Shown here piece after piece: positions 7,544 through 51,040 of a stretch of DNA of 64,000 bases. The notes beneath the pieces are model-generated. The model searched no databases, was not told the origin of the DNA, and worked only from the letters and a program-made list of their open reading frames with translations. The number at the start of each line of letters is the position of its first letter. Position 1 is the first letter of the stretch. A program made the position numbers and the translations under genes. This DNA comes from Halichondria panicea. Lineage: Eukaryota > Porifera > Demospongiae > Suberitida > Halichondriidae. The stretch is taken from the NCBI RefSeq assembly GCF_963675165.1, contig NC_087392.1, positions 1,317,001 through 1,381,000 on the forward strand, given 5' to 3'.

Positions 7544-7840
7544 TTGATTTTCATGTGCAAATACATTTTGTATGCAATACATAAAATGGCACACACGTAC
7601 GTACGTATACATGTATACTGTCATCACTTTTATCTCATAACAAAAAGTGTGCACATACTCTTGCCTGTTATTGTTTTACTCAACATTTTGATTTTTGTAC
7701 TGTATTCCCATTGTTTCATGTATAATTATAATATGTACAAATTAACAGTGATGGCAAATCACACAATCATGATGGTTGAGTGATTGAGTGCTGTGTAAAG
7801 AAAGAAAAGTGCAAATGATTTGGTAGATCTATGTACATCA

Positions 7841-8916
7841 TAGCCTCGATCCCAGGCCGAGTTTTCGCTTTTATAACGGTTAGGCGAACAACTGGGCCTG
7901 GTACTAGTTGTCTGCGCATGCGTCAAATTTTCATTGTATATTTGTGGTCGGCAAAAATATTTAATAAATCAATAATTGAAATTTGTACACAGAAAATGCA
8001 CAGAGTGAGTACACAAAAGATGCACATAGGGAGCTGCTTCACAAAGGCCTGGGGAGTTGCCAGTTGTGCTGCAGCACAATTACAGTGACCCAGGGCAACT
8101 TCAGGATGATTGAATGCCTTCAAATTACGTTTCAAAAAGATTTAGCAGGCTGCTGGACTTCTCTGATTCTAGGCCCCAACTCGTAACTCATTGCTTGAGA
8201 AAACGTAGATTCTCTTGATGTCTCTGAGCTACCCAGCAACAGGTCATACTCCAGTCCTGTGTCTGTGAGTATAGGACAATATTAAAAGAAACCAAAGACG
8301 GTTAAACCCTTACCTCAAACTGTCCAGTCTCGTCCGTTAGTATAGCCAAGAGGAGCACTGTTGGGATAGCTGGATATTAGCCATTGCGCCTGTACAGAGA
8401 AGTAGACATTCTAAATACGTGTAGATCTATACATATTAAATTTCTCGGTTATAGTGTCATTGTCGACGAGCTGATGATGGCAGCACCAAGTTCTCTAGCT
8501 CACACTCTTCACTTGATCCACCATATTAATGATGAAACTATAGTCTACCTACATTCTTGCCAAACATGAACAAGACTTGATAGCATAGCCGGCCATAGGG
8601 CCCACACAAAAATATCTGACCTTAACAAGCTTGACAAAGCTTTATACCTCTTCCCTTGTTGTTCAGTCTTCAGAATAAGCTTCAGAGAAGAGAGAAGCTT
8701 CAGCTAAGAGCCATTCCAATCGATTCCAATAATGATAAAACGGGAACTGACTTCTAGTACACGATAGTACACGAATATAAATGTCACGAAAGTGAACGAG
8801 AATATCCATTCGTCAGAATCTGACGAACGACTGACGCATGCGCAGACAACTAGTACCAGGCCCAGTTGTTCGCCTAACCGTTATAAAAGCGAAAACTCGG
8901 CCTGGGATCGAGGCTA
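7841..8916. mobile_element. 1.08-kb non-autonomous TIR transposon (Mutator-like)
   Basis: Perfect 85-bp terminal inverted repeats start TAGCCTCGATCCCAGGCCGA and match base for base at both ends (7841-7925 and 8832-8916). A perfect 9-bp direct repeat, TGTACATCA, flanks the element at 7832-7840 and 8917-8925. Long TIRs with a 9-bp target duplication are typical of Mutator-like elements. The roughly 0.9-kb interior shows no transposase-like reading frame, so it must be mobilised in trans. Identical arms and intact duplication suggest a recent insertion. Confidence 0.82.
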
Positions 8917-8925
8917 TGTACATCA

Positions 8926-9240
8926 ATGATTCAATCAGTTGAAAAGACCATAACAAAAGACAGTTACAAGTTTCGGGTATATCTTGCTGCATTTCCTTGC
9001 AGTTTAGTAGTTTTATCTCGTACCATTGTGACTACCAAAGGCTTTGACAATGCAACAGGAATGGTGGGTTGTGTCCGATTATATAGTGCCTGCAACAATG
9101 AAAGCACCGCGGGTGCTGATGCCTCGGTGGAAGTGCCAAAGCTACATAACATAAAACTAGCTTTTAAAAGAAGCCAAGAATTAATTTTCTGCATGCGAAT
9201 AGTGGGTAATGATCAACCATGATTGTTGTTAAAAACGATC
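8926..9240 (-). pseudogene. Degenerate copy of the last ARHGEF17 exon
   Basis: Reading the minus strand gives peptides such as RTQPTIPVALSK and VVRDKTT-like VRDKTTKLQ, matching LTQPPIPVALPKGHV and VVRDKTTLLVTGG of the true last exon at 12544-12906. The copy lacks the GGNGCEDL segment and has no upstream exons nearby. It is a duplicated, decayed exon, not a gene. Confidence 0.7.
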
Positions 9241-9590
9241 GATGCCAAAAGTTCAAGTCTAAAATTAATGGCTGCAAGTCAGCAGAGCCTTGCAGCTCTC
9301 TGCTCACTCTTGCAGCTACCAATAGCTAGCGTTCTAGTGCAGAGCTAACTACTAAGTAGAGTAGTAACACTCGGTGAACAAGTTTTACTACGGACTCTTC
9401 TGAAAAGGCTGCAATGGCATTCCAAGTAAGCAAAACTAGGCATAACTCGAGAACAAAGCATTATTTTGCAAATCCACGAATTAAAATCCAAGTAAACATG
9501 ACTAGAAGCCTATAGAAACTCTTACTTGCACTTGATTCATCCTTGAGCAGCTGTAGCGGTCTACACACACACACAGACACACAGACACAC

Positions 9591-46984: not shown

Positions 46985-47023
46985 CTACTGGAAACTCAGA
47001 TAAACCCAACTTCACAAGCAAGG

Positions 47024-47638
47024 ATGTTCTTTTTTGTTCTTTCCTGCCTGTTAATTGCTCTCTTTGCATTTGTGGACGTCTGGTACTTTGTGAGAGGGAT
47101 CAAGTTTGGTGTTGAACTTCTTTCGAAACAAAGGAAAAGATCCTCAAAAGATGAGATACTTTCTGTGAGTCGAGCCAATGGAATGGTCCTTCCATCTGAC
47201 ATCGATATGTGGTGGCACATGAACAACTCCAAGTATTTGAGAGAGATGGATTTCGGAAGAATAAAGTTTTTTTCTGATAAAGATGTCCGTACGATCTTAT
47301 CTAGACTAAAGGGACGACTTGCCTTGAGTGCAATCAGTATACGATATCGAAGGTCTTTGTTGCTTTGGCAACGGTTCACCATTGAGACCAAGATCTTATG
47401 CTGGAAGAACGATGGATTTTATTTGGAGCAAAGATTTGTTGGAGATAGTGACAAATTTATCTACGCAATCGCTCTAGTCAAGATGGTAGTTCGAGGTGAA
47501 GGAGTGAATATGGACGTTGTCATGGAGAATATCGTAGGAGAAAGTTTTCTGAGCCCACCACTCCCTCCAGAGGTCAAATGTTGGATGAATAGTATTGCCG
47601 AGTCTAGCGAGGGATTGAAAAAAGAGAGAACCAGATAA
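47024..47638 (+). CDS. THEM6: THEM6-like hot-dog thioesterase family protein
   Basis: Single-exon frame of 204 residues from MFFFVLSCLLIALFAFVDVW, an N-terminal membrane anchor or signal segment as in THEM6. The body fits the family: MWWHMNNSKYLREMDFGRIK, RYRRSLLLWQRFTIETKILC, FYLEQRFVG. An in-frame ATG 50 codons upstream exists (46874) but the hydrophobic start is the likelier one because it matches the family's length. The hot-dog fold suggests acyl-CoA thioesterase activity; the family's substrate is poorly defined. Confidence 0.88.
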   Translation: MFFFVLSCLLIALFAFVDVWYFVRGIKFGVELLSKQRKRSSKDEILSVSRANGMVLPSDIDMWWHMNNSKYLREMDFGRIKFFSDKDVRTILSRLKGRLALSAISIRYRRSLLLWQRFTIETKILCWKNDGFYLEQRFVGDSDKFIYAIALVKMVVRGEGVNMDVVMENIVGESFLSPPLPPEVKCWMNSIAESSEGLKKERTR

Positions 47639-47859
47639 ATACTTAACTGACATTCATTTGCCATATTTATTGATTTGATTTTAGCCTTCTAATTAAATAT
47701 GCATATAAATTGGCAAAAATTAATGATAATAATTCACATCAATAGACTCAAATCGATAACAAATACACACACAGATACGCAGTAGAAAAAATACAAACAA
47801 AACTACAAAAACTGTTATAGCTTGGGTATACAAAATAAATACCCTTCTACACGTACACT

Positions 47860-50782
47860 TTAGTTAACGTTCTTAAGTCTGAAGAGGCAGTCAGAGAGGG
47901 AGGGTCTTTCACTGGCCTCAGGCTGCAGCATGCCCTGCACCAGGGCACTAAAGGCTTGGGGGAGAGGCTGACAGTATCGAGTGTGCTTGCAGTAGGTGTC
48001 GTTCAGAGGAGGCAACTGATCAATGCTGTATCCCCTCTGGTCAATAGTGCCCTTCTCAAATGGGTTGGGATGACCGGCTAGCTCATATGCTAGCACTCCA
48101 GCGGCCCAGACAGGTTGCTTGCTGTACTTGATGGTCTTTCTTGGACCAGGCTTGGCGTTCAATACTTCCGGACAGAGATGAGCATTATTGCCACCAACCT
48201 CAGCACCTGGGGGCCGGGGAGGGAGGATGGGACAGCAATCATTACTAGTGAATTACATACATGTACAGTCATGTAGTATTGGTAGTGGTAGGAGTTCAAA
48301 CTCCTGGTAGTGGGTATTAACCTTACCGTGTGTGTATGGAATAGTGAAGCTTTCGTCTAGCAGAATAGCCTTTCCAAAATCACTGACCACCAGGTTCCCA
48401 TCTGAACTGAGCAGTAGGTTGTCCAACTTGAGGTCGCGATGGACAATACAATTTTGCTCTAGAAACTTTAGAGCCTCCAATAATTGTTTGAACCACCTGA
48501 CCACAGCGTTGGGCTGTAAGTACACCAATTATGATTACTCGATAAACTACAGACTTACAGTAGGTCCTCTGTTGTCCACCAGTGTGGACACTTGTTCGTT
48601 CATACTCATGGAGTGTTGGTCCATTAGTAGGAAGAGAGACATTGTACGAGCATTCCTACCAACAGCTCGGAACTGAGGGATGACGTCAGGGTTGGCACGA
48701 TCAAAGAAAAAAGCCCACATGTGAATGATGTTCTCGTGAGAGGGAAGCTGACAGAGAACTTGGTACTCAGTCTGAAACTGGGTCCGGACCTAAAGTACAA
48801 AGTACACAGACTATTTCTCAAAAATAGAATCCCAAAACAGCATATACACATACACATACATACACATCAAGAGAAAAGCAAACAGTTCATGAGCTATGCA
48901 AGGGATCGAGTTGCAAATCCCACATTAACATTGCAGTACCTGTGTTTGAGTCTGTGTCTGGAAGTAGTTTGTGAGCACCTTCATAGCATACACTCTGCCC
49001 TTTGTGGGAATATTTGGTCTCTCACACGTAACACTTAGTACCATCCCCTCCTCCTTAGCATCATGAATCACTCGAAGCTGCAAAAACGTTTACAGTGTTG
49101 TAAGTGCCGTACTGTGTGCAAAACCACGCATTGTAAACATTGTGTATGAACTAACCACATTGTAGTCTTCAATGCTGGTGGTGTACAGCATCCTCGTCTC
49201 AAGAAGCTGGGTCTCCAGTTCCTTAACTCGGCCATTATCTGTCGATCTCGTACGAGGCTACAACAATTAATTATCATCATAATTCTATGTACTGCCGGCA
49301 ACCCATCTTACCTTAGGCTCCGGACGTGGACGACCATTGCTTGAGGCTTGTGGCGAGTTGATAACTTTCTGCTTCAGAGAGCTTAATTCCGTATCCTTCC
49401 TAGAAAGCTCTGTGTCCTTTCTGCCAAGCTCCACCTCTTTCCTATCTAACTGCCGCTTCAGCTCATCGACTTGCTGCTGCAGAGAGGACATATCCTGTCG
49501 CAATGATACGTTAGCCTGCTTTTCTTTGGTTAGCTTGGAGTTGAGGTCATCCATGGATTGAGTGAGAGGACTGTCCAAGTTATTGAGGCCTGAGGGAGGG
49601 TGGTATAATTATATGAATAATAACTAGTCATTATTTTACCTGATGCACTGCCCATGCTGGACACACTGCCTCTGGAAGAAATGGACCCCTTCCTCTCTGT
49701 GGCTATTCTCAGTTCTGGCACGCTTTCCAAAAGCTTCTTCTTGAGGTCGGTCTTCTCAAAGCAGTCATGAGGGGAAATTCCCATCTTGATCATGATGGCT
49801 TTCATATCTTTAATGGAGGCAGTGTCCAGGTCCATCTTCAACAGCTCCTCAAGATGCTGGGGGCGTGACTCACGACGAATCTCAGCACTCTTTTTGATTT
49901 TCTCGTGTCGCTTCTTCTGCTCCTCTTCTTCCAGTCGTTTCTTATCCTCAGCCTCTTTAAGAACTTTCTCCTCCCTCTCTGCCAACTCTCTGCAACATAC
50001 ACACCACACATCATATGGTAGGTACTCTGATTTACTAACCTCTTCATCTTATGCTCGTATTCCATTCTGATTTTCTGCTCTCTCTGAGACATATCCTTGC
50101 TGACTTGCTCCGCTAGACCCTCAGCCACATGCTCCACTAGCTTAAGTTTGCCTCGCATCTCCATAAACTCCTTGACTTGGGCCTTTAGGCGACCACTGGA
50201 AGAAAAAACAAGCAACAGTGAAAATACTGTATTTGCCCATGAAAATTCTTACGTATTGAGTCCAATTCGGATCTCTCCTTCACCCTCGTACTTGACCCGT
50301 TTCAGATTCTCTCCGCCGTAGAATCCTATCAGAATGGTCGGAGTGTATTGTATCCCTCCCAGATCTTGACGTAGCTGTGTGTGCATGCAAACTGAATTAG
50401 ATCGAGCTGTCTAGCTAAGCAGATTATGTAGTTCAGCTAGCTAGATCTATATTTTATTATTATATTAACTTTATACCTGATCAAAGGTCCCAAATGGACC
50501 CACTTTGACCAAGAAGAATGGCAGCCCATCAAACTCTCTTGCCATGTCAAAAAACACACCATCCACTCTCTTGCAATTCTCACTAGTTCCATCAGTTATG
50601 TCCATCAGAAACACCATGTTCTCTTTGCGACAGGCTTCTTTGATTTGGTTCCATGCACGGAGCTCTTTGGGAATCACAAACACATTGTCTGGAGGAGGCC
50701 TCTCTCTTCTAGCTTGCTCTCTAGCTAGCCCTCCAGCCAGCGCATCAGCAAGCATCAAATCCAGAAAAGTTAGTCCAGCCAT
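47860..50782 (-). CDS. Thioredoxin-like / coiled-coil / PINK1-type kinase fusion
   Basis: The start at 50782 opens a thioredoxin-like domain over two exons (VFVIPKELRAWNQIKEACRK, GLPFFLVKVGPFGTFDQ, YTPTILIGFYGG) without a CxxC site. A long helical region follows (49620-50215) with a SAP-like stretch (MDLDTASIKDMKAIMIKMGI). A second coiled coil (49312-49590) precedes a short linker and the kinase (47860-49085). Kinase motifs: RVYAMKVL (Lys), HENIIHMW, IVHRDLKLDN, VVSDFGKA, and the PINK1 hallmark GNNAHLCPEVLNAKPGPRKT, then YSKQPVWAAGVLAYEL. The stop is at 47860-47862. Every intron I traced keeps the same phase, so this reads as one gene. A glycine loop is not obvious. PINK1 senses mitochondrial damage; this N-terminus shows no mitochondrial presequence, so its role is open. 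Two genes with a missed boundary is the alternative. Confidence 0.8.
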
Positions 50783-51040
50783 AGCTAGCTAGCTAGTAGC
50801 TGCTATAAACACACGTATATACACAACGATGGATGGCTGGTCTCCGTAATTCCAGTATGCCACTCCCACTTCAAGTTTAGACAAAAGTGTTTTCAGTTTC
50901 AGAATACATGTAACAGAAAAATGATTTATATTATGGAGAATCAGATACATGGTAGATCTAGTTGCAATTTGCAATCAATCCATGATGTGCACACACATCA
51001 CTAACACTGAATAGAGTGAATAGTGTCTGAGTCATGTTAG

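Follow-up and report, generated by a model that had tools for sequence, protein, structure and literature searches.

A PINK1-type kinase domain behind a putative thioredoxin-like and coiled-coil front in a predicted gene of the sponge Halichondria panicea

The activation of PINK1 is understood through failure of its import, its binding to the TOM complex and its C-terminal tail. What, then, is to be made of a sponge locus whose letters seem to spell a kinase of the PINK1 type behind a front of quite another kind? The locus lies on the minus strand of a 64,000-nucleotide stretch of Halichondria panicea DNA, here called the window (G000:C16:1317001-1381000), and an earlier note made from the sequence alone had read it as one gene in which a PINK1-type kinase is fused to a thioredoxin-like domain and long coiled coils. 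Here, we ask whether front and kinase form a single gene, how far the kinase is a PINK1, whether the assembly (131 Mb in 39 contigs) holds a canonical PINK1 besides, and what such a protein may do. The features of the gene model are collected in the table.

Features of the predicted kinase gene (positions in the window)
Feature	Position	Strand	Basis or remark
Whole coding region, 10 exons, 738 aa + stop	47860..50782	minus	exon joining, coding score
Exon 1	50782-50477	minus	
Exon 2	50374-50253	minus	
Exon 3	50195-50040	minus	
Exon 4	49989-49640	minus	
Exon 5	49589-49312	minus	
Exon 6	49257-49156	minus	
Exon 7	49077-48940	minus	
Exon 8	48789-48559	minus	
Exon 9	48513-48327	minus	
Exon 10	48206-47860	minus	
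N-terminal hydrophobic stretch, aa 1-19, then Arg-rich stretch	50726..50782	minus	hydropathy; atypical for a presequence or a transmembrane segment
Thioredoxin-like domain (plausible), aa ~31-142, exons 1-2	50253..50692, broken by intron 50375-50476	minus	profile alignment
Charged region, aa 143-235, exons 3-4	49869..50194	minus	59% D/E/K/R/Q, no Pro
SAP-like stretch (plausible), aa ~240-288	49710..49856	minus	resembles MANF/CDNF C-terminal domain
Coiled coil, aa ~318-404, exon 5	49312..49572	minus	heptad test
PINK1-type kinase domain, aa ~430-738, end of exon 6 to exon 10	47860..49182	minus	Pfam, PDB matches, tree
HRD, aa 586-588	48433..48441	minus	sequence reading
DFG, aa 606-608	48373..48381	minus	sequence reading
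GGNN, opening the PINK1-type segment GGNNAHLCPEVLNAKPGPRKTIKYSK	48184..48195	minus	sequence reading
Stop codon at the end of the kinase fold, leaving no C-terminal extension	47860..47862	minus	gene model

As the fusion is known from genomic sequence alone, two adjacent genes, one with the thioredoxin-like and coiled-coil parts and one with the kinase, might have been read as one. All nine introns are bounded by GT..AG and measure 45-150 nt, and the exon phases of the 738-aa frame agree across the whole gene, as the earlier note had claimed; this includes the disputed stretch, where introns 4-6, of 50, 54 and 78 nt, have matching phases. The frame of exon 1 is open, stop to stop, from 50788, which places a stop codon just 5' of the first ATG. 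A codon score, trained on 46 open reading frames that are no shorter than 280 aa and come from elsewhere in the genome, with many kinases among them, ranks the assigned frame top of six in all ten exons (the weakest margin, 5.5 vs 1.6 bits, being that of exon 6), which makes two genes unlikely; of the 27 intron frames, 26 are below zero and the remaining one is at 0.1. When positions 47500-51000 were scanned on the minus strand, AATAAA occurred within intron 1 (at 50458) and beyond the 3' end of the gene (at 47671), ATTAAA once, in exon 4 (49814), and neither was present in 49085-49600. That interval is filled by exons 5 and 6 and the three short introns, so that there is hardly space for the end of one gene and the start of another, and we consider the two-gene reading highly improbable. 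Kinase and front are thus taken as one gene, in agreement with the earlier note. Tail to tail with it, on the plus strand at 47023-47638 of the window, lies a thioesterase gene (4HBT_2, E 5.5e-21), presumably THEM6-like. An Rfam search of the window gave no match.

The identity of the kinase is best seen in pairwise matches. Pfam Pkinase matches aa 464-731 (E 2.5e-29), and among the best 60 of 1631 PDB matches the 12 best distinct sequences are all PINK1 (E 5.9e-27 to 3.7e-23), the next kinase being STK17B (E 5.5e-13), a gap of 14 orders of magnitude from the best PINK1 and of 10 from the weakest. The hallmarks that had been claimed for the domain, IVHRDLKLDN and an SLFLLM-type stretch among them, are borne out, IVHRDLKLDN, GGNNAHLCPEVLNAKPGPRKT and MSLFLLM all being read in it. 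A tree of 20 rows was built from this gene, three animal PINK1s, three pseudokinases and 13 other kinases of the sponge's own genome, three further similar kinases of that genome having been omitted beforehand and no other sponge being among the rows. It separates the gene, the PINK1s and the pseudokinases from the 13 other kinases with support 89/91 and joins the gene with the three PINK1s alone with support 55/59; of all rows, human PINK1 is closest to the gene (40% over 168 columns). A tree holding the gene among the 13 other kinases is 7.35 log units worse but, at p-AU 0.119, is not rejected. The tree therefore agrees with the PINK1 kinship without being decisive, and the main grounds for the kinship are the pairwise matches and the shared segments. 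These support a predicted catalytic domain of PINK1 type, the claim of the earlier note standing on the PDB and own-assembly matches and the 89/91 grouping, with the placement outside PINK1 as its weak point.

How much of PINK1 has been kept can be read against the proteins of human, Tribolium castaneum and Pediculus humanus. Common to these and the predicted protein are the ATP lysine (K471) and the alphaC glutamate (E492), 21 residues apart, as are the human PINK1 residues that we take to be their counterparts, K219 and E240; the HRD and DFG motifs; the distal loop of insertion 2, retained as LPSHENI (aa 499-505) with the L, H, N and I of the PINK1 loop LPPHPNI; the rear part of insertion 3, from PDV to LFL, at the same length as in PINK1; and the substrate-side GGN...PGPR...YSK segment (GGNNAHLCPEVLNAKPGPRKTIKYSK). 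Unlike PINK1, the protein lacks the proximal insertion 2, the C-terminal extension and the front of insertion 3, where the span from the His of the insertion-2 loop to PDV counts 16 residues here vs 25 in human PINK1, the part equal to human 285-294 being 9 residues shorter, and where a HMMER alignment to the kinase leaves nine extra Pediculus residues. In the glycine loop, APE and alphaF DxW motifs, to use their general names, the reading by eye departs from the usual kinase: the loop is degenerate (IHDAKEEGMV), also in comparison with PINK1, APE reads CPE and the Asp of DxW is replaced by Pro (QPVW). The loop and the lost Asp mean that catalysis is not assured. The beta3-alphaC loop reads QTQTQTQ, and the autophosphorylation serine, which we take to be Ser228 in human PINK1, is not kept in place.

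Some of these losses touch parts with known functions. According to PMC5679756, deletion of human PINK1 285-294 abolishes the phosphorylation of ubiquitin and Parkin in cells, and in Tribolium PINK1 deletion of the proximal insertion 2 is harmless whereas deletion of the distal loop abolishes activity. The C-terminal extension comprises human residues 511-581 (PMC8767193), and its contact with the N-terminal helix is needed for stabilisation of PINK1 at the TOM complex (PMC8767193, PMC8828467). By its predicted sequence, the protein fails the definition of PINK1 on the C-terminal extension, on the front of insertion 3 and on targeting, the last judged by hydropathy only.

A weak or dead kinase with a scaffolding role, comparable to PEAK1 and SgK223 (PRAG1), is suggested by the degenerate glycine loop, the Pro in alphaF and CPE for APE, all read by eye, as well as by three relatives in the same genome that look like pseudokinases. 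PEAK1 and SgK223 have in common with this gene a related kinase lobe and the nature of multi-domain scaffolds, yet they carry a PINK1-like C-terminal region, through which PEAK proteins dimerise (PMC8828467, PMC8767193), whereas the sponge protein has no such tail and retains K471, E492, HRD and DFG at correct spacing. Neither feature of the PEAK/NKF3 group, the C-terminal helical region or the lost catalytic residues, was found in it, and we judge the scaffold reading to be rather unlikely.

The earlier note had called the gene a PINK1 paralogue, in which case the genome should hold a canonical PINK1 as well. Pieces of Pediculus, Tribolium and human PINK1 were matched to the assembly exon by exon, with only the best candidates scored. 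This gene is the best match of the Pediculus piece (E 1.8e-11) and of the human piece (47% over 95 aa, E 4.9e-13, next 8.8e-7; all 94 candidates scored), and the Tribolium piece is matched first by C5:207k (E 1e-18) and then by C10:2654k and this gene, both at 1.1e-7. No canonical PINK1 was found with these three queries among the best candidates scored. Several loci were considered for that role and set aside. C5:207k (C5:207.3k) has the tail and is read as the PEAK-like member of this genome because its DFG is replaced by GEF and because SgK223 and PEAK1 are among its matches. The tail of C14:1687.6k is PINK1/PEAK-like, and 12 of its 14 PDB matches are PINK1; it was rejected since the HRD and DFG residues are lost (HNS, NFG), and it looks like a pseudokinase. 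C10:6722223, found with the Pediculus query as a possible exon (44% over 46 aa), has surroundings that read NEK-like by eye. By eye, too, C10:2654k and C4:4215k read as other kinases, and so, as ordinary ones, do the two loci that come next after this gene for the human query, C14:6405k and then C1:17683k. Itself apart, the window kinase is matched best by C5:429.7k (E 3.3e-14), which looks like a pseudokinase, with HLK for HRD, DFQ for DFG and repetitive coiled-coil frames on its 3' side (L016 1474-3161).

Of the kinases with intact catalytic residues found in the genome, this gene is, as far as the letters tell, the most PINK1-like, and a canonical PINK1 is likely absent from the assembly; the absence is likely rather than proven because the searches were exon-wise and scored only the best candidates, and because of the question of the assembly's completeness. 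The same limits, the divergence of the kinase from human PINK1 and the different architecture would all suit a paralogue. Against it stand the failure of three animal PINK1 queries to yield a canonical gene, the loss of HRD or DFG residues in the PINK1-like C14:1687.6k, C5:429.7k and C5:207.3k, and the ordinary character, by eye, of C10:6722k, C10:2654k, C1:17683k and C14:6405k. The term paralogue is hence not supported, and we regard such an origin as unlikely.

The surroundings of these relatives hold some observations of their own. The pseudokinase of C14 sits with its tail in one open frame (L072 5424-6566, minus strand), upstream of which there is a long Ser/Thr-rich open reading frame (7821-9380, minus strand). 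The window kinase and C5:429.7k might form a kinase-pseudokinase pair. Large arrays of kinase open reading frames, the kinase being intronless, extend over G000:C16 3.75-5.70 Mb and G000:C3 0.87-2.46 Mb, and one member of the C16 array (L021) consists of a kinase, a coiled coil and then repeats that by eye look like Kelch.

In PMC3789837, PINK1 and PARK2 are listed as metazoan-specific genes, a class whose definition there does not demand their presence in sponges, and among the literature matches listed no paper describing PINK1 in sponges, or a PINK1 of such architecture, was recognised. A Parkin candidate was found near C5:7.14 Mb (G000:C5 ~7140800-7145800; L077, L076). It matches PF17976, which we take to be RING0, above the cut-off at 32 of 73 positions, and its Ubl, joined by hand from two exons, matches PF00240 (E 3.2e-15); pieces of RING1, IBR and RING2 were read by eye. 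The exon that follows the first one of the Ubl encodes YSTLHCIR, whose serine aligns without gaps with Ser65 of human Parkin, the human letters around it being those that we presume. The kept counterpart suggests that a kinase for Ser65 exists, and it argues for some kinase doing the work of PINK1 in this animal.

Is this gene then the functional PINK1 of the sponge, with its targeting front replaced in the lineage and its tail lost, still phosphorylating ubiquitin and the Ubl of Parkin? The Parkin candidate with its serine and the outcome of the Pediculus, Tribolium and human queries are in favour, but the beta3-alphaC loop has no autophosphorylation serine in the presumed place, and a canonical PINK1 may sit in the unassembled part of the genome. 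The two lost elements, the front of insertion 3 and the C-terminal extension, are moreover both needed by known PINK1s (PMC5679756, PMC8767193), and this role, though conceivable from the predicted sequence, appears improbable.

In place of the presequence and transmembrane segment of PINK1, the gene is predicted to encode thioredoxin-like, SAP-like and coiled-coil parts. Hydropathy and inspection revealed neither a mitochondrial targeting sequence nor a transmembrane segment in the 738 aa, and the most hydrophobic 19-aa window, at the N-terminus, reaches 1.46 and has Asp at 8 and 13; these residues form a helix in a low-confidence structure model. On this point the earlier note is supported. 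The thioredoxin-like label is plausible. A thioredoxin profile built from four sequences can be aligned to aa 31-150 over 71 columns, C70 then falling on the second active Cys and P114, the cis-Pro candidate, on the cis-Pro. The score is non-significant, being reached by 62 of 400 shuffles, whereas neither the alignment length nor both landmarks together were reached by any of the 400 (the landmark test having been chosen after an earlier run had shown the alignment); a longer N-terminal piece scored 13.8, with at least 8 of 60 shuffles higher. No Pfam thioredoxin family matched the front. Among 20 PDB matches at E <= 10, eight are designed TIM barrels, six cytochrome c1 and two thioredoxins (E 0.53), and the reversed sequence gave three matches, none of them a thioredoxin. 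The structure model, which covers exons 1-2 and reads through intron 1, is not trustworthy (pLDDT 40, pTM 0.28), though its strand-helix-strand-helix-strand order over aa 34-94 fits. Where thioredoxin h and other thioredoxin-fold proteins would lead one to expect CGPC, the protein reads SENC (aa 67-70), so the domain lacks the CxxC site as the earlier reading had it, the second Cys nonetheless being kept.

The SAP-like label for the next part is likewise plausible, the nearest relative being the C-terminal domain of MANF/CDNF. Seven of 15 weak PDB matches are MANF/ARMET/CDNF, the best an ungapped alignment of 45 residues (E 0.084), and three are E4B U-box; Pfam ARMET_C stays below its cut-off (E 0.018, 14.9 bits vs 23.5). 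MANF is secreted or resides in the ER, whereas no clear signal peptide is apparent here. As for the long charged coiled coils that had been proposed, the heptad test is clear in one of three charged stretches, that of exon 5, where none of 300 shuffles reached the value and Pfam coiled-coil families match below cut-off; the others were equalled by 34 and 55 of 300, the former being aa 143-235, for which a coiled coil is not shown. Relatives of the front were not found elsewhere in the assembly, the four matches of aa 1-297 at E <= 1 all being its own exons. None was confirmed for the N-terminal domain among 14 stretches of viral contigs or for the kinase among 41 stretches of the genome contigs collection, and searches for relatives in phages found none.

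The observation in the earlier note is confirmed as a whole, and its interpretation is supported in part. Our preferred reading, to which we would give a probability of a little under one half, is that a single gene encodes a PINK1-branch Ser/Thr kinase that would not be imported into mitochondria. Its coiled coil would likely serve to assemble such a kinase, and its N-terminal modules to steer it. The coil of exon 5 may pair two chains and so let the kinases phosphorylate each other, a task in which PINK1 may depend on the TOM complex. Docking or sensing could fall to the thioredoxin-like and SAP-like modules; as one of the two active cysteines remains, binding of proteins would be a likelier mode for the former than exchange of disulphides. 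The substrate would probably not be ubiquitin in the standard manner of PINK1.

A further-reaching proposal, which we think quite improbable, is that this soluble coiled-coil kinase, as the animal's sole one of PINK1 type whose catalytic residues are intact, directly senses damage or docks to it through the thioredoxin-like and SAP-like modules and phosphorylates Parkin at Ser65, which would make the PINK1-Parkin pathway independent of import; the kinase could then be either an early PINK1 that predates the mitochondrial signal or a replacement of PINK1. If true, a PINK1-type core without import signal, TOM mode or tail, yet present beside Parkin in a genome where no canonical PINK1 was found, would help to tell the ancient parts of the pathway from the later additions, and the gene would offer a natural test of the purpose of the PINK1 tail and insertion 3.
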